Below, in pieces: positions 11,595 through 64,000 of a stretch of 64,000 bases of DNA (position 1 is the first letter of the stretch; each line of letters begins with the position of its first letter). The stretch is taken from the NCBI GenBank assembly GCA_021790195.1, contig JAJYIF010000001.1, positions 62,001 to 126,000 on the forward strand, given 5' to 3'. The notes under the pieces are model-generated. The model saw nothing but the letters and a program-made list of their open reading frames with translations, was not told the origin of the DNA and searched no databases. This DNA is from Nitrospirota bacterium (GTDB taxonomy: Bacteria > Nitrospirota > Thermodesulfovibrionia > Thermodesulfovibrionales > UBA9159). A program made the position numbers and the translations under genes.

Positions 11595-13046
11595 CTATAG
11601 GCAGGAAAATCCCTGGTACACTACATTGTTTGTCTTATCGGTCTCTGTAACAGCACCGCCTTCATCAATCACGCCCCATTCGTAGTATGAGCTGTGGGTG
11701 GCGATGCCGCTGATCGTAGTAGGAATGACGAGGCTCACGGATTGTCCGGCGGCAAGGCTATTGACCGTCACAGTGGTTATGAATGTGTCATGCTGCGTCG
11801 TGGTGTTAGGCGCATAAGAGAAGATGGGCATCCACGTTGTAAAGTTGGTTGTCACATATGTATACGTATTCACGGCGCCATAGAGAGTTCTCCATCCTGC
11901 GTTCCAGTAGAGTTTCACACTAAAAGTGCCCGCTGCACCGACTCCCTGGTTCTTAATTGTAATATAAGTGTTGAAGGGCTGGCCGTCTTTTATTGCGCCC
12001 GGTCCTTGGAAAGAGGTTATCATAAGATCGGGCAGGGCCGAGCTCATGGCTGAGCAACTGGCGTTTGTCCCGCCGTTCGATCCGTTACAGGTCCAATTCC
12101 ACGGTCCTGACCCGCTCAGTGTGGATGGCAACGGCGTGCCGGTAGTGCATAAACTCGTTGGAGGATTGGGCAAGCCTGTCGTATATGTCACACACGCTCC
12201 GTTGATCAATTGGTTGGCCGAGCAGCCGACTGTGGACCCTCCGAAGGCGCCATTACAACTCCAGCTCCACGGTCCCGGCCCGCTCAGCGTGGAAGGCGAG
12301 GGCGTGCCGGTAGTGCAGAGATTTGTGGGAGGACTGGACAATCCTGTGCTGTATGCGACGCAGGACCCATCGATAGTCTGGTTGGCGGAACAGGTTGCGT
12401 TAGAGCCTCCGTTTGCCCCGTTACAGGACCAGCTCCATGGTCCTGAGGCGCTTAGTGTAGAAGGCGAGGGCGTGCCGCTGGTGCAGAGATTCGTTGGAGC
12501 TGAGATAAAGTTCTGGCCGTTGCTCCTGTTGTCGCACGCGCCATTTACGATGGTATTGTTGACAATGCTATATTCCATCACCATAAGACCGCCATTTGTG
12601 CAGAACAGGTATGTAGTGCCAGTTGAAGGGTCTAAAGTTATGCTCAGATCGGGAAGCGACGCATTGTTGTTGTGTATCGTATAGAACTTATTTGTCGCAT
12701 TGAAGGTCGGCGTGCCCGTGCAGACGCCGGAGTTGCAGGTGAGCCCACTATCACAGTTTGCACTGGTAGTGCACGGAGACTTTGTAATATCGGTCACCGA
12801 TACTCCCTGCGGATCCTGGGGCGTCAGGAGATTGCCGCTTGTATCCCTCACTTCGAGATATATGGAGTATGTCGGCGGATTTGCCGGCGTGTTACCCGTG
12901 CAGTCGCCGCCCGTACAGACGGAGTAGGCCCTCGTAATTATCTTCTCCGCGTCGTCAAATACGCTCGCCTCCGAGGCCCACGCGATGCTATTAAAACACA
13001 GGGCGGCCAACATCAATATCCCTAATGAAAGATACAGCTTCTTCAT
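11595..13046 (-). CDS. Secreted repeat protein with C-terminal CARDB-like domain
   Basis: An exported protein of 483 residues. KKLYLSLGILMLAALCFNSIAWA is a clear signal peptide. ATG 13046 was chosen because AGGAGGTG stands just upstream; an in-frame start at 13112 would precede the signal peptide. Middle: a cysteine-rich stretch (CTTSANCDSGLTCNSGVC) and three tandem ~55-residue repeats with GPWSWSCNG and NGG. End: LPDLMITSFQGP...FNTYITIKNQGVGAAG, which resembles a CARDB adhesion-type domain. Likely an envelope or extracellular binding protein; ligand unknown. It may share a transcript with nothing upstream, as 270 bases with a promoter-like site precede it. Confidence 0.75.
   Translation of the reverse strand: MKKLYLSLGILMLAALCFNSIAWASEASVFDDAEKIITRAYSVCTGGDCTGNTPANPPTYSIYLEVRDTSGNLLTPQDPQGVSVTDITKSPCTTSANCDSGLTCNSGVCTGTPTFNATNKFYTIHNNNASLPDLSITLDPSTGTTYLFCTNGGLMVMEYSIVNNTIVNGACDNRSNGQNFISAPTNLCTSGTPSPSTLSASGPWSWSCNGANGGSNATCSANQTIDGSCVAYSTGLSSPPTNLCTTGTPSPSTLSGPGPWSWSCNGAFGGSTVGCSANQLINGACVTYTTGLPNPPTSLCTTGTPLPSTLSGSGPWNWTCNGSNGGTNASCSAMSSALPDLMITSFQGPGAIKDGQPFNTYITIKNQGVGAAGTFSVKLYWNAGWRTLYGAVNTYTYVTTNFTTWMPIFSYAPNTTTQHDTFITTVTVNSLAAGQSVSLVIPTTISGIATHSSYYEWGVIDEGGAVTETDKTNNVVYQGFSCL
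12050..12548 (-). repeat. Three tandem ~165-base coding repeats
   Basis: Three copies of a ~55-residue unit, each with G-A/S-C near its start, then LCTxGTPxPSTLSxxGPW, WSCNGxxGG and a final CSA. The copies differ by scattered substitutions and keep the same four cysteines, which suggests disulfide-stabilised beta repeats. Confidence 0.8.
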
Positions 13047-53929: not shown

Positions 53930-56900
53930 CTAATCGCAGGTATTGCATCCAGGCGCATAAGACGGCGTTGTTACATATAATTCATCGCTGTATGCCGAGT
54001 ATTTATAGGCGCACGAACCACCGCTCCCGCAGGTGCATGGGTTATTGCCGGAGTCTTCGCATTTGAAGGCCCTGGCCCTGTAGCGGTACCCGCTGTTGGG
54101 GTTTCTTGCGATCTTGTCTATAAAGGAGTGCGTCGCGGCGCTTGTCGTCGCAAATTGGGTCCAGATCCCTTCACGCAGCTTCGCCTCGATCGAGACACCA
54201 TCAATGTCGCTCCTGCACGAATTGGGAGAACAGGAATTAGGGTCATAAGTCCAGGTCAACTGGATCTCCTGACAGCTCAAGGCATTGCCGGAAAGGGTCG
54301 GCTTGGCAAGGTCGGATGTCATGAGGCAAACCTCGTTGAAGCCGGAGTCTCTGTTGCTGTCCGTATTGTATGCCGTCACCTCATAACAATAATTGGCGTT
54401 CTCTGACAGCCCGGTGTCGGAATATGTCGTGGTTATCGGGGACAGGACGGTGCATCCGACATAAGGATACAATTGGTTGCAATACAGCTCCTGATAGGCG
54501 ACCGGATCGTTATAATTCGGCGAGCCCGGATATGACCCCGGATCCTGCCTTCTATATATCTTATAGTTGGTTGCACCATATATCACCGGCCACGAAAGGG
54601 TGATCTGCGAGGGAGAATCTGCACTAAGGGTCACCTGCGGCTGGCACGGCGTCGTCCTTGCGCACTTCTCATTGCTGCCCACGGAATAATAGCCTTCATC
54701 GTTCTTGGCGTAAACCTGATAGCAGTAATATTCCCCTGACTTAAGACCCGGATTGGTGTAGGGACTCGCAGAAGGGGTAGCAATCGCAGCGTAAGTCCCT
54801 CCTGTCCCTGTCTTCCTCTGTATCTGGTATCCCGTCGGCGCACCGCTCCCGCTGTAGGTCCAGCTGAGGTCCATAGAACTGCTGTTGTTGGGTAAAGTAA
54901 CGCACGTAGCCGGATTCGTAACAAAGTTATAAGGGTCGTTTAACACAGGCTTAATAGGCGGTGTCTGCCGCTGCCCAGCCGGGCTGAACGCGGAATATCC
55001 GTTCGCATCGGAGCAGTTGTATGCCCGGCAAGCGCGTACGGCAAAGCAATAATATGTGTCGGCACTCAGACCGGTAACAGGATAAGTCGCCGCCCAGGCT
55101 GTATAGTTCTCTCCTGCAGCATATGATGGCAACGATGGCCAGCCATTAACTCCCACTCCTGGCGCTGGGCAACTGGCCCTCTCGTTGCAGGTATTCCCGG
55201 AACCGCAATCCACTGTCTGCGTAGCGACCGTGCAGGGCTTGTAAACATTATTGGAGCAATTGCTCCTCGGCATATAAAACAACTGATAACCCACATCGCC
55301 GGTCACATCGTTCCAGTAGGCGTTGACCTGGCTGTCAGAGACCGGAGATAATCCGTTCTGCGCGTCGGCGTGCCATGTAGGCGCGGACGGATATGTCCTC
55401 GTGAACGCCGGCGAGGTAAAGGCCGTATATAATCCGGGGCCGTTAAACAAGGCCCTTACCTGATATTTGTATCCGTAACCTGCCGTCAGACCGGCATCAA
55501 TATAGGTCGTAGTGCTGGGAGTGGCCAGGGCAAGCGGGAAAAACGTAATCAAATCGAAATAAGCGGCGCCGTTTGGAGCACCGTCTGCAAAACATCTGAT
55601 ATTGACCGAGGAAGTCCCGGAGGGAATCGTTACGGTCTCGGTCAGATAGTGCCAATTGCTGTCATTGTTTGGATCGCCCTGGGCGTTAATTCCAATCCCG
55701 GGAGAATCGATTCCTGAACCCTGCACATCGCACTGCGCCCTTCCGGTGGCGCCTGTCAGAGAGGTTCTTAGGTTTCCCGATAGGACATACTGAGCGCCCA
55801 CAGTTACCGATACTGTTTGATACCTTCCAAGAGTCGCTCCAGTCGCGGTCAATTTGAGGCTCTTCCCTCCGCTGAAATAAACCGATGTATCAAAGCTGAC
55901 GCCCGTCAGGGTACCGACCGTGCCGGTCCAGCTTGTAGTGGAATTTTCGAAATCCGGATCAGCAGCCAAGTTGCCCGCAATTGTTGTCCAGCTTCCCCAA
56001 TTGGAAGTATTGCTGTCGTATTCGGGATTATTTGTATATGAGGCCTGCGACCTCTGTATTTCATAACCTGTATACTTTCCGCCGCCGTTATTTTGCCAGT
56101 TCAACTGTATCTGGGACGTTGTTACGTTAGTCAAAGTAAGAGGGTCCGGCGACGGCGGAGGTGTGGCCAGACACTGCGCATTGCTATAGACATCGGTAGG
56201 AGGGTTGAGTCCGTTGACCGCATTCTGAGGGAAAGTAGCGATGAAATTATCTACCTGTGCCTTCAAGCTGATCGCATTATTCCTCAAGGCATTCTGGAAG
56301 ACATAAACCCTTGCAGGTGTTCCGACAAGACTGGCATCCGATGCCTGGGCCAAAAGCTGCCAGGCCGCGCCTGTCCATACATAAGCATACACGGTCGATC
56401 CGGTCCTGGTTATTCTTAATATGCCTGACGTATCATCGCTCGTTAGATAGTTAATATTTAGTGCAGTCCCGTTGACGAAAACGCCGGCCGTATATCCGTT
56501 GCCTGTGCCCTCGACATGCCGCTGGACAGCTACCCTGGTATTGCCGTCAGAAGAAAAATCGACTCGAAAATCCACATAGTAATTCATTCCCCACGAGGGG
56601 TCCGGGATCAGCTGGCCGGAGGGCAGGCTATAACTGATCTGGGAATCAAAATCGCCTGCGAAAGGAGCGATATTGTTAAGACCTATTTGAGCCTGGTTTG
56701 TACCCGATGTGTCGTTTCCGTTGCTCGCAGTGTCAAACTCAACCGCACCGGCTGCCCAAGTCACACTCGCAGAGCCGTTTCCGTCGCTCAGGTTTATGGG
56801 CGGCGAAGTTGCAGAGGTCGACCCCAGATATCCCGCCTGCCACCAGGTCGTAGAGTTTATTCCGCTGGTGAAGGCGTCGTTTATTGTCGGATTTGTCCCT

Positions 56901-59900
56901 GCTACAGCCGAGTTATACGCTCTGATGATGTAACTGTATGACGTGTTCTGCGCAAGTCCGGCATCAGGATAAGAGTTAACATTGTAGCCGAGGGCGGGTG
57001 GGATTGTGTTGTAAGTCCCGCCGCTGCAGGTGCCTCCGTTGCAAGGCCCGGTGCAGTCCTTCCTCTGCACATCATAATTGGTAGCTCCGGTGATGTCTGT
57101 CCAGTTAGGTTTCAGCGACGTATTGGATAGTGGGATAATAGTATTCTGGGTCAAGGTACCGAGACAGGCCCAGACATACCCGACACTGCTGGGAGCTGAT
57201 TTTGCGCCTCCGTTATTCACAGTTGAATACACCCTGAATTTATAGGCCCACCCCGGATTCATAGAATAAGCATATGTCTTCTGGGTCGGGTATGCGAGAG
57301 CCTGCCAGTAGTTAAATGAGTAGCCTCCGGAGCAATTACTAGGGTTCGCATCATTACAGTATGAATACTCGATGTAATAGCCTGTCTGTGCGCCCGGTCC
57401 GTTCCAGTCCCAAGAGATAGTGGCATTGTTGTCGCTACAGGTAGCGCTACGAGTTACGCTGGAGAGCGTCGGCGCCGTGGGAATCGTAAACGTACTGGCC
57501 TCATTGCTCCAGTCCGAGTCGCCAGAGCCGTCCGTGGCTTTCAACTGGAAGTAGTATAGAGTGCCCGGGGTCAAGCCTGTTACAGTACAAGACGTTCCTG
57601 TTACCCCAACGCAACCGGAACAGGGTCCGTATGAGCCCCCGGAGGCCTTGCATTGAGCGCTGTAGCTGGATGCCCCGGCGACGCTGCCCCAGGTCAGGTC
57701 CACTCGATCAGTCTGGACATTCGACGGATTGTTCAGTGCCGGCTTTGCAGGCAATGTGTAAGCCGTGACCTGGTTGCTCCACACCGAATCACCATTGGCA
57801 TCGGTAGCCTTGACGGCAAAATAATATAGGGTGCCAGACGGAAGACCCGAAGGAGCACAGCTTGTGGTCCCGATGCCGGTGCAGTTGGTAGGGGTTGTGA
57901 TATTCGTATACGCTGTAGTACTGCCATTAGTGTTATATCCCAAAGTATATGAAGTCGCCTGAGTGCAGTTTTGTCCTGTTAAACCCGAGGTCGGGCAGGG
58001 AGTCGGGCCCGGACCGGCAATGCTGTTCCAGGAAAAGTTCATGCTGCCGGTTGTTATGCCCGAGGGACTGTTCAAAATTGGCGACCGAAGGGTCGTCGTA
58101 ACGGCAGCCACCGGCTTTCTCGACGGCAGGGTACCCGTGAATGACTCGATCCTGTAACAATAATTAGCGTCTTCAAGCAGAGGACCCGCATCCGTCCAGG
58201 AGGTCGGAACGCTTGTGCCCGGATTGATAGTATTGATCAGGGTCCAGCCCCCGTCCGAGGGCGAAGGACATGACGGCAGGCCGGGAAGAGTAGCCGCAAT
58301 CCTCTCGATCCTGACGCCTGTCGTAGCGGTGCAGGTCCCTTTGCCCGAGGACGAGCAGTCCGAATCCGCAGAGCATATCATCGTAGTGTCGCCGGAACAC
58401 AACTTCGTGTTATTGTGCCAGCTTAGGTTGGCCTTATAGACGTTGCCCGGGTCTGTGACCGCGACGGCAGAGAAGGGCGCAGGGGACATTAGATATTTAT
58501 TGTCCTGCTTCAAAACAACAATGTCTTGATTATTGTTCGGGTTCATGGAATAGCCGGCGATAAACGCCTCGCCCCGATAATTGATCGCCATCGCGCTCGC
58601 AGAGTCGTCGCCGCTTATGCAGTGCTCGTTTGAAGGGCAATTTGAGTCTGTCAGGCAGGACGCAGCGGTTGTCACGGAACACCATGCGCGGTTGTAAGTC
58701 ATAGCGCCGAGGAATGTCCCTTCATAGTCGTATATCACCGATAATATGTCCAGGTTCGATCCGTTCTTGGTGTCGCCTGCAACGTAGATGTAGCCTGAAG
58801 AATCCATCTCCATGGCGGCCACGAGATCATCATTATTGTTCTGTCTTTCGAAATTCCTTTCCCAGACGACCGAACCATCCGTCGCGGCATAGCGTATGAT
58901 ATGAAAATCGTGATTGTCGCAATCCGAATTCACCGAACAACTCCTCGTCGGATAGTTGGAGCATGCGCTCGGCGAGCCCGAACAGGTCCCTGATGAAGCG
59001 AGGCTCCTCCCTGCCACAACGACCGCTCCGTCGATAGGGTCCACCCTCACCGTCTTAGCTTCGTCGTCCCCATGCGCAGGTCCGTCATAGGTCTTCTGCC
59101 AGACAATCCTGTTGCCGTTTGGACATGAACTGAGCATGTTCGAGCCGCAGTACTTGGTCGTCAGCCAGTCCTCGTTGCCGGAAGAGTTCACAGAGTAGCC
59201 CGTGACAAAGACGTTTCCGTAACTGTCCATTGCTAATGACGCCGCATGATCATTGCCGCTGCCCGAGCCATTAAAGGTGTCGGACCATATGACCTGTCCC
59301 TTGGTCTGGCCGTTGCACTTGGAATATATACCGCCGCAGGTGCCTTCGTTCAGCGCCTGGCTGCAGTCCGAGTCCCTGCCGCAGGCCTTGTCAAGCTTAT
59401 TGGAACAGGCTGAGCTGCCGCAGTATTTTGCGGTAAACCAGTCGTCCTGATTAGTCGCTCCATTGTAAATATAACCCGTCACAAATATGTTCCCGTCTGC
59501 ATCAAAGCTAACTGCAGCAGGGCGGTCATCTCCGTGAGAGGGGCCGTCATAGCGCACAACCCAATCGGCGCTTGCCGTGCAGAAACCCGGGAAGACGCAG
59601 TCCTGGTCCGAAGTGCAAGAGGTGCCTGTGTTGTTGGAACACACACCGCCGGAAAGATACTTGATAATGTAGATATCGTCGTTGCCGGATGTGTTCTTGC
59701 CGTAGCCGGCAACAACTATGTTGTTGTAACTGTCCAGGGCCGTGGCGACCGTTATGGCATCAACGTTCTTCTGGAAAGGGTTATTGTACTGCGCCTCCCA
59801 CAATTTCAGTTCGCCTGATGTGGGGTACGCACCGGAATATTTAATCGTATAGATCTGATGTGCGTAGTCATAACCGCTGCCGCCTGGCACCGATACTTCA

Positions 59901-62380
59901 GAAAAACCCGATACGACCGCATTCCCGTTCTTGTCAACCGCAATGCAGGCCGCTTCGTCTTCCCTGTTGCTGTTACCGTACCTGTCGCTCCACTTTACGG
60001 TCATATTGGATCTGTCGAGCTTGAAAGTATAATAATCGTAATCGACTGACGAAGACGCGGAGTAGCCGGTTATGACAGGATTGTCGTCGGGTCCCGTTAC
60101 GATACCGGTTGCCGCATCGTTAGGAACGCTTATTTCGCAGACATTCGAATACGTGTCTTCGTGAGGACAATCCGTGTCTCTTGAACAAGGTGTTGTCCTG
60201 TCGGTACACACGTACGCCGCCTGGTTGTCATACAAATAGGTTCCTGTCGGAGATGACAGGGAGACCATTGTAGTCAGGGCATGCGCCTCATTGCTATAGT
60301 TGGAATACAGCGTCGAGTTGTGGGCCCTCAACCTGTAATAATAATAGTTATTCGCAGTTAATCCGGTATCCGTATATGAAACAGCGCCCATGCCGTTAGG
60401 CGGCGCCGGAGAGTTTATAGTCTGCACCTGCTGATAGCCATTTGGATCAAATTCGCCTTGTTTTCTTTCTATGACAAAATCAGCCTCATTGGTCGAGTTG
60501 TCCTGCCATGTGAGTTTTATCTTTGTGGCCGCGCAGGGCGTGTTTGCTCCGCAATCCGAGTCCTTGGTGCAGACGGTGGTATTGTCGCTGCACACCCCTG
60601 CTGTAGCGGTGAGACTCGTGGGCGGATTGAGCAAACCCCTATCATAATTAATCAGATAATAGTCATCGTCCGCCGCTCCGCTGGTCCATGCATCCGACCA
60701 ACCTGCAACGTACAAGTTGCCGCAGGTCCCGGGACTGCAGACAGAATCCGTGGCGCAGGGAGTGGCAGGCGAATTAGTGCATGTCTTGGAAAAAGCCACC
60801 ACGACTGCTTCGTCGTTGTGTTGGGCTCCGTCGAAGGTCTTCTGCCAGAGGAGGTTTCCGCTGCTTCCGCTATATTTGGCCGTCAACCAGTCAAAACCTG
60901 CCGAAGATGCTTTATAAACATATCCGGCCACAAACAGGTCTCCCGACAAGTCCATGGCCATACTGACTGCGGTAGCAGGGTCGTTATTGCCCGCGCCGAA
61001 TCCCACGGATTCCCATACCTTCTGCCCGCTGCTGCTGGAGCCGTTATACCTGGCGACATAGAATTTGTTGGACCCGTCCGGATTCGATGCGTAGCCTGCA
61101 ATATAGATATCTCCCGCTCCATCGACAAGTATGGCCTTGGGGACATCAGCAAAACCGCTGTTGTAGGTCCATGCGCCCATGGTCGCGCCACTCGCCCCGT
61201 TGTATTTTATGGTATAGATGTCGTTATCCCCGGCAGCATTCGTCACAGAATCAGTCACGATCACGTTACCGGCGGTATCCGCCTTTATAAGACGCTGACC
61301 GTTGTCCCCTCCTTTTCCCGTGCCTGCCTCAGGATATCTCTTCACCCACAGAGGAGACGAGCCGTTTGGGCCGAACTTGACAGTAAGATAGTCGAAATTA
61401 TTAGTGTCGCACGGACCGTTGCTGCCGCAATCGGCGTCAACCATACAGTTCGCAGAATTGTCGAGATGACAGATGTTTCTTTGCGAATATCCCGCGGCAG
61501 CGACACCGGTGCCGTCACCTGTCCAGACAAGGGACGTGAGTATATCCGTCTTACCCTGATAATTGCAGGAATTTCCGGAACCGCAGTCTGTATCCGCAGT
61601 GCATACCTTTGTATGATTGTTGGAACACCTGAGAGCGTCATAGGTCGCCGGCCAGCCCCCTTGAAGGTTGCCTGCCGAATCATACTTCAGGACGAGAAAA
61701 TCCTGCTGCCCGCCCGCGCCGCTATAGCCTCCCACATAAATATTATCGGAGCCGTCGACAGCTATAGCGGCACAGTAGCCGTTGCTGGGCGTCGCATAGG
61801 TTTGCTTCCATAAGACCAGTCCGTTTGCGCCGCTATATTTGACTATCTGACACTGAAAATTGCTCCCGTTATATATATATCCCGCAACTATCACGTTGTT
61901 GGCCGAGTCGACTGCCACGGCGCTTATCTGATCGTTGCCTGGCGGCGCGACATTGCAAGAATTCCCCGAGCCGCAGTCCGAATCAACGGAACAAATTATG
62001 GAAGAGTTATTGGAGCACCTGTTGAGAGTGGCCGTCCACGCCACAACAGGACTTCCAGGGGTTGAGGTATTGACCTTTACCGTATAGAACTGCGTGACTC
62101 CCGTCAGGTTCTCGGAGCCTGCAATGATGACATTTCCCTGTGAATCCACGACAGTGGCCGCGGGAATTTGCTGCCCTGCTTTAGAGTCCCTGACCTGCCC
62201 TATTACGTCTCCACCAACGCCGTAAGCCGGAAGGGCAAAACCGCCTGACATGGACAAGACGAGAACAAGAAAAGATAACCACAGAGGCACAGAGACACGG
62301 AGACTTAAACTTGCCCCTCTTGCACGTATCATTCCCCGTAGTGTCTCTTTGTTCGTGTGTATTTTCGGACAGCCCGCCAT
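53930..62380 (-). CDS. Giant exported beta-propeller / fibronectin III protein
   Basis: 2816 residues. The first hydrophobic segment (VSVPLWLSFLVLVLSMSGG) acts as signal or anchor. ATG 62380 is kept because AGGTAGGA stands seven bases upstream. First ~1100 residues: SBBP-type propeller blades such as DSQGNVIIAGSEN, VDSANNVIVAGYIYN, DLSGDLFVAGYVY and GNVFVTGYSV. Then about ten fibronectin III domains with KIKLTWQDNSTNEADFVIERK, ITLSWPVIYGATNYKIYRR and similar. It includes a jelly-roll region (DFDSQISYSLPSG) and a carbohydrate-binding-like module (DPDFENSTTSWTGTV). About twelve four-cysteine inserts interrupt the domains. Probably a large extracellular filament or adhesin. Confidence 0.85.
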   Translation of the reverse strand: MAGCPKIHTNKETLRGMIRARGASLSLRVSVPLWLSFLVLVLSMSGGFALPAYGVGGDVIGQVRDSKAGQQIPAATVVDSQGNVIIAGSENLTGVTQFYTVKVNTSTPGSPVVAWTATLNRCSNNSSIICSVDSDCGSGNSCNVAPPGNDQISAVAVDSANNVIVAGYIYNGSNFQCQIVKYSGANGLVLWKQTYATPSNGYCAAIAVDGSDNIYVGGYSGAGGQQDFLVLKYDSAGNLQGGWPATYDALRCSNNHTKVCTADTDCGSGNSCNYQGKTDILTSLVWTGDGTGVAAAGYSQRNICHLDNSANCMVDADCGSNGPCDTNNFDYLTVKFGPNGSSPLWVKRYPEAGTGKGGDNGQRLIKADTAGNVIVTDSVTNAAGDNDIYTIKYNGASGATMGAWTYNSGFADVPKAILVDGAGDIYIAGYASNPDGSNKFYVARYNGSSSSGQKVWESVGFGAGNNDPATAVSMAMDLSGDLFVAGYVYKASSAGFDWLTAKYSGSSGNLLWQKTFDGAQHNDEAVVVAFSKTCTNSPATPCATDSVCSPGTCGNLYVAGWSDAWTSGAADDDYYLINYDRGLLNPPTSLTATAGVCSDNTTVCTKDSDCGANTPCAATKIKLTWQDNSTNEADFVIERKQGEFDPNGYQQVQTINSPAPPNGMGAVSYTDTGLTANNYYYYRLRAHNSTLYSNYSNEAHALTTMVSLSSPTGTYLYDNQAAYVCTDRTTPCSRDTDCPHEDTYSNVCEISVPNDAATGIVTGPDDNPVITGYSASSSVDYDYYTFKLDRSNMTVKWSDRYGNSNREDEAACIAVDKNGNAVVSGFSEVSVPGGSGYDYAHQIYTIKYSGAYPTSGELKLWEAQYNNPFQKNVDAITVATALDSYNNIVVAGYGKNTSGNDDIYIIKYLSGGVCSNNTGTSCTSDQDCVFPGFCTASADWVVRYDGPSHGDDRPAAVSFDADGNIFVTGYIYNGATNQDDWFTAKYCGSSACSNKLDKACGRDSDCSQALNEGTCGGIYSKCNGQTKGQVIWSDTFNGSGSGNDHAASLAMDSYGNVFVTGYSVNSSGNEDWLTTKYCGSNMLSSCPNGNRIVWQKTYDGPAHGDDEAKTVRVDPIDGAVVVAGRSLASSGTCSGSPSACSNYPTRSCSVNSDCDNHDFHIIRYAATDGSVVWERNFERQNNNDDLVAAMEMDSSGYIYVAGDTKNGSNLDILSVIYDYEGTFLGAMTYNRAWCSVTTAASCLTDSNCPSNEHCISGDDSASAMAINYRGEAFIAGYSMNPNNNQDIVVLKQDNKYLMSPAPFSAVAVTDPGNVYKANLSWHNNTKLCSGDTTMICSADSDCSSSGKGTCTATTGVRIERIAATLPGLPSCPSPSDGGWTLINTINPGTSVPTSWTDAGPLLEDANYCYRIESFTGTLPSRKPVAAVTTTLRSPILNSPSGITTGSMNFSWNSIAGPGPTPCPTSGLTGQNCTQATSYTLGYNTNGSTTAYTNITTPTNCTGIGTTSCAPSGLPSGTLYYFAVKATDANGDSVWSNQVTAYTLPAKPALNNPSNVQTDRVDLTWGSVAGASSYSAQCKASGGSYGPCSGCVGVTGTSCTVTGLTPGTLYYFQLKATDGSGDSDWSNEASTFTIPTAPTLSSVTRSATCSDNNATISWDWNGPGAQTGYYIEYSYCNDANPSNCSGGYSFNYWQALAYPTQKTYAYSMNPGWAYKFRVYSTVNNGGAKSAPSSVGYVWACLGTLTQNTIIPLSNTSLKPNWTDITGATNYDVQRKDCTGPCNGGTCSGGTYNTIPPALGYNVNSYPDAGLAQNTSYSYIIRAYNSAVAGTNPTINDAFTSGINSTTWWQAGYLGSTSATSPPINLSDGNGSASVTWAAGAVEFDTASNGNDTSGTNQAQIGLNNIAPFAGDFDSQISYSLPSGQLIPDPSWGMNYYVDFRVDFSSDGNTRVAVQRHVEGTGNGYTAGVFVNGTALNINYLTSDDTSGILRITRTGSTVYAYVWTGAAWQLLAQASDASLVGTPARVYVFQNALRNNAISLKAQVDNFIATFPQNAVNGLNPPTDVYSNAQCLATPPPSPDPLTLTNVTTSQIQLNWQNNGGGKYTGYEIQRSQASYTNNPEYDSNTSNWGSWTTIAGNLAADPDFENSTTSWTGTVGTLTGVSFDTSVYFSGGKSLKLTATGATLGRYQTVSVTVGAQYVLSGNLRTSLTGATGRAQCDVQGSGIDSPGIGINAQGDPNNDSNWHYLTETVTIPSGTSSVNIRCFADGAPNGAAYFDLITFFPLALATPSTTTYIDAGLTAGYGYKYQVRALFNGPGLYTAFTSPAFTRTYPSAPTWHADAQNGLSPVSDSQVNAYWNDVTGDVGYQLFYMPRSNCSNNVYKPCTVATQTVDCGSGNTCNERASCPAPGVGVNGWPSLPSYAAGENYTAWAATYPVTGLSADTYYCFAVRACRAYNCSDANGYSAFSPAGQRQTPPIKPVLNDPYNFVTNPATCVTLPNNSSSMDLSWTYSGSGAPTGYQIQRKTGTGGTYAAIATPSASPYTNPGLKSGEYYCYQVYAKNDEGYYSVGSNEKCARTTPCQPQVTLSADSPSQITLSWPVIYGATNYKIYRRQDPGSYPGSPNYNDPVAYQELYCNQLYPYVGCTVLSPITTTYSDTGLSENANYCYEVTAYNTDSNRDSGFNEVCLMTSDLAKPTLSGNALSCQEIQLTWTYDPNSCSPNSCRSDIDGVSIEAKLREGIWTQFATTSAATHSFIDKIARNPNSGYRYRARAFKCEDSGNNPCTCGSGGSCAYKYSAYSDELYVTTPSYAPGCNTCD
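55184..62032 (-). repeat. Dispersed four-cysteine module within the giant gene
   Basis: About twelve copies, each ~20-28 residues with four cysteines in the pattern C-x(5-9)-C-x(2-3)-D-x-D/N-C-x(4-8)-C, e.g. CTKDSDCGANTPC and CTADTDCGSGNSC. DNA copies share a core equivalent to GACTGCGG. Clear positions are near 55184-55265, 58325-58405, 58615-58685, 59572-59650, 60128-60213, 60537-60602, 61408-61474, 61566-61632 and 61960-62032. Confidence 0.8.
62276..62306. repeat. CACAGAG-type repeat coding for the signal segment
   Basis: On the plus strand the bases read ACCACAGAGGCACAGAGAC then ACGGAGAC. From general knowledge this is a widely dispersed intergenic word repeat in several bacterial genomes. 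Here the minus strand encodes SLRVSVPLWLSF, the start of the hydrophobic signal of the giant protein. Confidence 0.6.
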
Positions 62381-62399
62381 ATTGATTCCTACCTCATTT

Positions 62400-62475
62400 C
62401 CTTCTTAAACTTCTTAACCCGTTCACCCTCTTGACCTGTTTGACCTTTTTCACCTTCTTGATCTTTGCCCCTATA
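62400..62475. repeat. Degenerate AGGTCAAG word repeat between two genes
   Basis: On the minus strand words of 8-10 bases recur: AAGGTGAA, AGGTCAAAC, AGGTCAAGAG, GGTGAACG, GGTTAAGA and AGTTTAAG. It fills the gap between the cytochrome stop and the giant gene, and resembles in style the repeat at 16756-16875. Confidence 0.6.
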
Positions 62476-62479
62476 TCTC

Positions 62480-64000
62480 TTACCACGGCGTCTTATTATT
62501 CCATTGCTGGTTGTCCGGCCAGCCGCCCGATCCGTTGGCGTTTGAGCTGCCATGGCATATGGCTGTGCTGTAACCGCCAAATGCGTTGTTCCACCAGCCG
62601 TAAGGGAACCTTCCGAACTGATACTGCCGACTCCATCCTCCGTTGCTTAAGGCGCTTCCCCCGGATGCCACACGGCCTCTGTGCTTATAATCAAGACAGT
62701 CGGTCTGGAGCAGTCTGGGAAGGCCTGAATTATGGGGTTGATGGCACTTTGAACACGGGTAAGAATGTTCCCTGTTGGCGCCCCAGCCTTTAACTGTCTC
62801 ATGGACCCGGTCAAGGGTCTTGAAAGCCTGGTTCTGATTTATCCCGTCCGTCAAGGTAGGCTTTGGATGACAGTTCAAGCACAGTCCGGCGAACTTGCTG
62901 TCATCCTCTCTTATTCGGTTTAGATTATTGACCGAGTCTTTAGCGCTCAGGTCGACGCTGTTGAATGTATTCCTGTCGGTCCTCCATACGCCGGCCGGCT
63001 GGGGGTTCGATTTCTGCGGATAAGGTCTCGGATACCAACTGTTCCAGTAATTCTCGTAGTTCTGGAAACCGGTCTTTCCGTTGTATCCGTCATTTTGCAT
63101 GGGAGGAAGATCTTCTTTATAAGGAGAAGTGAGCCATGTCCCCTTCAGAAGCGGCACGCCGTATGCCTGATTTGAGCCGAGGGTCGGGCTGACTCCGTGC
63201 GGGTCATGGCACGGCGTGCAAAGACCGTTTATCGTTGCCGCATATGGCACAACCTTATAGGTATCTCCCGAACTCACAGGATTCGAGAATGCATCAACAT
63301 TAAGAGTGGGCGGACTTACGGAGCTTGAGGTAATCTTCCTTACCTGACCGATGTTTGCCCCGGTCTGCATATAAAGATAATAATTGGTCCACTTGTTAGC
63401 GGTCCAGGACGTCTTTGACGAGTCGGTCAATGTCGTAGTCGAACCGCCCGACGCAGTGCCAGAATCCTTTGTCAAATCAGGGGTCTCTGCCTTCAGATGT
63501 CCTCCAAGGATAGTGTTCCTGCTCGCCCTGTAGCTGTAAAGCGACTGGGACGCCTTCACCCCCTGCCCGAAACGGGAAGTGTCCCTGAATCCCATAACGG
63601 GATTATTAATATTTATGCCGAAGGTCTCGGAATACCCCCACGGGATCCCCTTTGTGCTCCATATGCCGCCTCCGTTCTGGCAGTCGGTCTGGTTCGTGTA
63701 TTGAGTGAGACTGCACGCGGGTTTCAAAACCATAGCGTTCTCATGACAATCAAAGCACTGACCCGCGCCCGCCCCGTAAGGGTTGACTCCCGTCTGGCTG
63801 GGATTGGACGAGGCCTTATAATCCATAGCGTAGCCCCCCCTGCTCGCAACGGTCTCTTTGAGATTGCCGCCGTAGGGACCGGAGCTTGTGCATACCCCGC
63901 CAGTTCCGCAGTCTGAATCTTGAGAGCAGGAGCTATAGTTGTTCGTACATTTCTTGGGTCCGTAGGCAGTCGTATAACTCGATGTCTTCCCAACAAGCGT
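62480..64000 (-). CDS. Multihaem c-type cytochrome, 5' end outside the window
   Basis: The frame is open up to the window edge, so the N-terminus is missing; at least 506 codons are visible. Four CxxCH haem motifs are present: CFDCH, CTPCH, CLNCH and CSKCH, the second and fourth with the CH-x-PH pattern of dodecahaem-like periplasmic cytochromes. A final TAICHGSS has a CH without the first cysteine. A four-cysteine module (CTNNYSSCSQDSDCG...VC) lies at about 63890-63955, upstream of the first haem motif. It is expected to be exported and to carry electrons in the periplasm or outside. The next gene, 99 bases on, is the giant surface protein. Confidence 0.85.
   Translation of the reverse strand, partial: TLVGKTSSYTTAYGPKKCTNNYSSCSQDSDCGTGGVCTSSGPYGGNLKETVASRGGYAMDYKASSNPSQTGVNPYGAGAGQCFDCHENAMVLKPACSLTQYTNQTDCQNGGGIWSTKGIPWGYSETFGININNPVMGFRDTSRFGQGVKASQSLYSYRASRNTILGGHLKAETPDLTKDSGTASGGSTTTLTDSSKTSWTANKWTNYYLYMQTGANIGQVRKITSSSVSPPTLNVDAFSNPVSSGDTYKVVPYAATINGLCTPCHDPHGVSPTLGSNQAYGVPLLKGTWLTSPYKEDLPPMQNDGYNGKTGFQNYENYWNSWYPRPYPQKSNPQPAGVWRTDRNTFNSVDLSAKDSVNNLNRIREDDSKFAGLCLNCHPKPTLTDGINQNQAFKTLDRVHETVKGWGANREHSYPCSKCHQPHNSGLPRLLQTDCLDYKHRGRVASGGSALSNGGWSRQYQFGRFPYGWWNNAFGGYSTAICHGSSNANGSGGWPDNQQWNNKTPW

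Follow-up and report, generated by a model that had tools for sequence, protein, structure and literature searches.

A four-cysteine module in two neighbouring exported proteins

We analysed a window of 64,000 nucleotides from the genome of a Nitrospirota bacterium (contig JAJYIF010000001.1, positions 62,001 to 126,000), near the end of which two adjoining genes on the minus strand encode exported proteins carrying a short cysteine-rich module. The first gene (53930..62380) encodes a giant protein of 2816 residues composed of SBBP/delta-60 beta-propeller repeats and fibronectin type III domains. The second (62480..64000) is the 3' part of a multihaem cytochrome gene, whose 2292-residue frame contains 31 CxxCH motifs and continues beyond the window end. 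The module is about 21 residues long and follows the pattern C-x7/8-C-x2-D-x-D-C-x4/7-C or close variants of it; its cysteines are called Cys1 to Cys4 below. An earlier note on this DNA had reported about twelve copies in the giant protein and one in the cytochrome, and both counts were borne out. The giant protein contains 12 copies (11 with the four module cysteines and one permuted) spanning 55187-62017, and the cytochrome copy, CTNNYSSCSQDSDCGTGGVC, lies at 63890-63949 on the minus strand. A loose pattern gave 11 matches in the giant protein compared to a mean of 0.08 per shuffle (1000 shuffles), and a strict pattern gave 7 compared to none in 1000 shuffles. The profile search of the genome and its relatives suggested in the earlier note was run: a profile built from the copies recovered them with per-genome E-values down to 1e-11 and detected further copies in other proteins, namely, within the same genome, in a paralogous giant protein, a PilY1-like protein and a second cytochrome.

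The genome assembly (3.3 Mb, 54 contigs) also contains a paralogue of this cytochrome and giant-protein gene pair, the parts of which lie on two contigs. Identity between the giant protein of the window (A) and that of the second pair (B) is 61%. Module 1 (CSNNSSIICSVDSDCGSGNSC, 61955..62017), module 3 (CHLDNSANCMVDADCGSNGPC, 61409..61471, within a propeller strand pair), module 4 (CTNSPATPCATDSVCSPGTC, 60722..60781), module 5 (CSDNTTVCTKDSDCGANTPC, 60533..60592, at a fibronectin domain start), module 6 (CTDRTTPCSRDTDCPHEDTYSNVC, 60137..60208, diverged), module 7 (CSNNTGTSCTSDQDCVFPGFC, 59579..59641), module 8 (CSNKLDKACGRDSDCSQALNEGTC, 59336..59407), module 9 (CSGSPSACSNYPTRSCSVNSDC, 58919..58984, the permuted copy, with an additional cysteine upstream and without Cys4) and module 11 (CSGDTTMICSADSDCSSSGKGTC, 58331..58399), all on the minus strand like the remaining copies, are common to A and B. 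At the place of module 10 (CSVTTAASCLTDSNCPSNEHC, 58619..58681) protein B has a differently spaced module, while module 2 (CSNNHTKVCTADTDCGSGNSC, 61565..61627) is missing in B and module 12 (CSNNVYKPCTVATQTVDCGSGNTC, 55187..55258, in a fibronectin region) is unmatched there. Copies within the giant protein are about 50 to 1050 residues apart, each in a separate domain, and form no tandem arrays. A cysteine motif in a CARDB protein of the same window (CTTSANCDSGLTCNSGVC, 12720..12773, minus strand) had been taken for a related form of the module. It does have the Cys2-Cys4 core in common; because its spacing is C-x5-C-x5-C-x4-C and nothing but this core is common, it represents a different arrangement and only a partial relative.

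The second gene pair differs from the first in other respects. The contig break (between C13 and C1) falls inside cytochrome B (L033, L031), the ends overlapping by about 126 bases. Between its haem segments (L033 near its low end; L031:10575-12314), cytochrome B contains a stretch that by eye resembles a LamG/concanavalin-type domain and that cytochrome A does not have. Residues ~2135-2287 of giant protein A, in the fibronectin region, form an insert of about 150 residues missing in B.

Hosts of the module and empty sites among relatives

A search of the phylum with the module alone returned 37 frames, 30 of which were PilY1, a pilus-tip adhesin, by BLAST; among the rest are a protein with 8 CxxCH motifs and two N-methylated pilin-like proteins. 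With the PilY1 family PF05567 (cut-off 28.1 bits), L142 and L139 scored 30.3 and 36.4, and L126 fell below at 16.4. Beyond the phylum, the module core was found in Geomonas, Geobacter, other Deltaproteobacteria, Myxococcales, a Methylomirabilis, candidate phyla and Phycisphaerae. Every identifiable host is an exported protein. No Pfam or NCBIfam model covered the module in the scanned proteins, and no publication on this insert was found in the literature searched. A 2026 survey of myxobacterial PilY1 proteins describes a large variation in their cysteine content, and a text search of it for insertions found no mention of them (PMC13190605).

The earlier note had proposed that the module interrupts domains as an in-frame insert in several exported proteins, a proposal that the empty sites in relatives confirm. 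Within the genome, giant protein B carries modules between GYGKN and TSGND and between AVDGS and DNIYVGG, both sites being empty in A, and three module sites differ between the two genes. The fibronectin, GYSQR and AFSK sites, given earlier as examples of domains cut by the module, are filled in both paralogues, and not every site listed is therefore polymorphic. Cytochrome B has a module between GGQGS and QYF, within a stretch conserved in cytochrome A, which is empty there. All 10 distinct homologues of the window cytochrome are empty at its module site and read straight through SYASA-TTNGGILKDT. Orthologues of the giant protein are nearly absent (a single distant match, 34%, in 176 genomes, and none found in the named genome collection), and PilY1 and cytochrome homologues were therefore used for the empty-site tests.

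We aligned 60 PilY1 sequences from one order after removing the modules, at least one of which was present in 37 of them. At each of 16 sites with close conserved flanks the module was found in 1-8 rows and the site was empty in 40-59, and host length was otherwise about constant. On the tree, the 16 sites require at least 25 changes, 5 of them at one site and 4 at another. Pairs of proteins differ as well: L120 (filled) and L122 (empty) are 62% identical, and at one site L170 has two modules in tandem where L122 has one. Among the PilY1 proteins of Geomonas, L288, L291, L299 and L300 have a module after a DNSxSMYDL motif and L290 has none, which looks like a precise loss; two adjoining modules of L293-L296 are missing in L297-L298. 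The alignment of homologues thus returned empty sites at every scale compared, rather than the module at every position, and therefore the module is an insert, repeatedly gained and lost. The automatically picked frame of L289, being antisense, was disregarded, and L137, considered as an empty relative of L136, was dropped as a contig-end fragment.

Two further features of the PilY1 hosts were observed. The Geomonas DNSASMYDL motif resembles a metal-ion-dependent adhesion site (MIDAS) in a VWA-like domain, and the module stands directly behind it in several species and is missing in one. In L126, L142, L143 and L148 the N-terminal half of PilY1 contains tandem module-like repeats with a CxxGxxGxxCxxNxDC-like consensus. 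Tandem arrays were found only in some PilY1 N-terminal halves, where they are a transition towards stalk repeats.

Predicted fold and origin of the module

An AlphaFold model computed from a 59-copy alignment (mean predicted local distance difference test score, pLDDT, of 81) shows one strand around Cys1 (residues 6-8), another around Cys4 (residues 28-30) and, at residues 19-22 (DSDC), a helical turn. In a model of a PilY1 protein (pLDDT 67; predicted template modelling score, pTM, 0.76) the two module copies sit on beta-hairpin turns. Both read EEE-E-HHH-EEE from one flanking host strand to the next, and homologues that lack the module make a short turn at the corresponding place. The compact predicted fold favours disulfides within the module.

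On this basis, we consider it probable that the module is an autonomous mini-domain, a disulfide-stabilised hairpin that plugs into exported proteins and is gained, duplicated and lost by ordinary in-frame events. A short strand would end at Cys1 and be followed by a Ser/Thr/Asn-rich loop to Cys2 and by the DSD helical turn to Cys3, with Cys4 at the start of the last strand. The strands by which the chain enters and leaves the module would lie side by side, as the model suggests, so that the module would fit a hairpin turn and lengthen the hairpin, leaving the host fold unchanged. Ordinary rare recombination would add it to host genes, copy it there and remove it again, always in frame, and which events survive would depend on the fold and on a secretion route that forms disulfides. 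PilY1 is the chief host, followed by minor pilins, cytochromes and, in the source genome, the giant propeller proteins, in which the module has multiplied. Its most likely function, outside the cytoplasm, would be to stiffen and shield turns that are exposed, or to offer a variable tip for binding.

Several points weigh against this interpretation. Parsimony counts do not separate gain from loss, nor do they order all the events. The bias towards PilY1 could in part stem from the length, exposure and cysteine tolerance of these proteins instead of any specific requirement. Confidence in the PilY1 model is medium, and neither this model nor that of the module has a convincing fold match in the PDB. 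The pairing of the two end strands, taken from the model, and the disulfide bonding, probably Cys1-Cys3 and Cys2-Cys4, are both features that we infer.

Exported proteins in oxidising conditions might also have evolved similar disulfide-stabilised turns independently. The motif is easily reached, because knottins and inhibitors that are clearly unrelated (squash inhibitors, a carboxypeptidase A inhibitor) have the core CxxDSDCxxGxxC too, and copies from different genomes show no common ancestry in their DNA. However, far more than the cysteines is repeated in unrelated hosts and phyla (consensus CSxTTxTxCxxDSDCPxGETC), a shared codon is kept in the giant gene and tandem duplicates occur at one site; convergence seems unlikely to us.

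The scattered copies with empty sites, together with the three sites that differ between the paralogous giant genes, could also suggest a mobile DNA cassette inserting in frame, as Rickettsia palindromic elements or PARCELs do; the earlier note had suggested spread as a mobile or recombination-favoured element. The DNA-level tests did not support it. In 86 copies over the phylum, codons at conserved positions match host usage. For 84 regularly spaced copies compared at 15 non-cysteine positions, similarity was 0.284 within a genome against 0.276 between genomes, a within-genome value reached by 169 of 500 label shuffles. The comparison of synonymous sites called for in the earlier note gave an observed/expected identity of 1.05 for these copies both within and between genomes, with no copy-to-copy similarity above host codon usage. 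We found no palindrome or excess DNA folding in six copies compared to shuffles (z from -0.45 to 1.37). No target-site duplication was seen at the compared sites (L120/L122, Geomonas and the paralogue pair), which are diverged, and every module match lay in a long open frame without stops, none outside. One relic does speak for copying at the DNA level. In the cytochrome and giant genes 11 of 13 copies encode the serine after Cys1 by TCC, against an expectation of 20% (P about 1e-6), whereas TCC occurs in 12 of 41 other Cys-Ser pairs. The copies of A do not count as independent of those of B, but the window copies alone give 8 of 9. In addition, some differently placed copies are alike in codons, module 1 and a B-only module having 11 of 16 identical (6.5 expected). 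These observations point to an old multiplication inside the giant gene; nothing shows movement of the module as a DNA element today, and a mobile cassette seems to us very improbable. Least credible of all, modules ancestral to these domains and sporadically lost would agree with the absence in Geomonas L290 of a module common to its relatives, best read as a loss, and with the sharing of most giant-protein modules by A and B, but at most PilY1 sites the module is present in one lineage out of 60, the cytochrome homologues are all empty, an ancestor with all sites filled would hold dozens of modules, and the tree counts refute this history for most sites.

A module that can enter or leave a hairpin with the host intact is a natural case of modular protein evolution below the usual domain size, and it accounts for the fragmented automatic domain models in its host proteins. 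Since the module is present or absent among congeners of Geomonas, a cultured genus, its effect on pilus-tip function is testable. It may also serve protein design as a ready stabilising insert.

Comparison with known systems and a second insert

Matches of the module to Pfam, NCBIfam and PDB entries were all sub-threshold or partial, and assignment to a known domain was rejected. The closest likenesses are with TIGR04201 (below) and with the DPY module of Drosophila Dumpy, an extracellular cysteine mini-domain dispersed between other domains of a giant protein (PMC2930355). DPY is of about 21-24 residues, like the module, and the module profile matched its structure (PDB 1oig) with an E-value of 1.8e-5 over 20 residues, covering the Cys2-Cys4 core ECVLNSDCPSNQACV (hmmsearch). 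The fourth cysteine of DPY is placed after the core, whereas the extra cysteine of the module precedes it. The spacing C-x5-C-x5-C-x4-C of DPY is that of the CARDB copy and differs from that of the module (C-x7/8-C-x5-C-x4/7-C). DPY alternates with EGF modules in an animal protein, in contrast to the bacterial module, which lies inside domains at hairpin turns. The match would be compatible with homology and with convergence alike. Cys1 may stand in for the fourth DPY cysteine, from which the bonds Cys1-Cys3 and Cys2-Cys4 would follow.

Over CxxDSDC the profile also matched, more weakly, inhibitors of the squash type and one of carboxypeptidase A. The squash-type knottin inhibitors (PF00299) have an identical CxxDSDC segment, with weak matches (E-values 0.016 and 0.27; scores 15.7 and 11.7, below the cut-off of 22); a knottin is knotted and has six cysteines, the module four, and the likeness is most likely convergence. 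The cysteine-rich repeat of TraA, Myxo_Cys_RPT (TIGR04201), resembles the module in its C-x2-D-x-D-C-x-x-G-x-x-C core and in its occurrence in exported bacterial proteins. Its matches were weak (E-values 0.018 and 0.69; 10.2 bits for the cytochrome, 15.1 for L139, none for the giant proteins), and the cut-off of 25 bits was reached by no tested module host, the positive control L205 scoring 29.6. In TraA, TIGR04201 occurs mainly in tandem (PMC3325183), whereas most module copies are inserted singly and have their Cys1 upstream.

Among coding mobile elements, empty sites are the feature that the module shares; DNA similarity and a palindrome, which also characterise them, were not found. Rickettsia palindromic elements are palindromic repeats alike at the DNA level that also enter cytoplasmic proteins. 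Like them, the module is a short in-frame insert in unrelated genes with empty sites in relatives, but it is neither palindromic nor alike at the DNA level, and its identified hosts are exported. PARCELs are coding repeats of ~25 residues dispersed in surface proteins of distant taxa, tandem and amphipathic, with palindromic DNA (PMC2996958). The module is likewise short and scattered over surface proteins of distant taxa; it differs in being cysteine-based, mostly inserted singly and without dyad symmetry.

The window cytochrome contains a second, unrelated cysteine insert, C-x4-Y-x2-Q-x2-C-x3-GG-x-W (63647..63715, minus strand), which is missing in its homologues. It left no DNA relic (265 identical synonymous codons, 242 expected). 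It is doubtful, though conceivable, that previously unrecognised plug-in disulfide cassettes of at least two unrelated kinds, the module and this insert, repeatedly enter and leave hairpin turns of exported bacterial proteins across phyla by some in-frame process, tuning the exposed surfaces of electron-transfer proteins and of adhesins at the pilus tip. The second kind (L030, L033, L031, L241-L243) is present in only 3 of 60 relatives and gave 17 profile matches in the genome, most of them to multihaem cytochromes and one to giant protein B.

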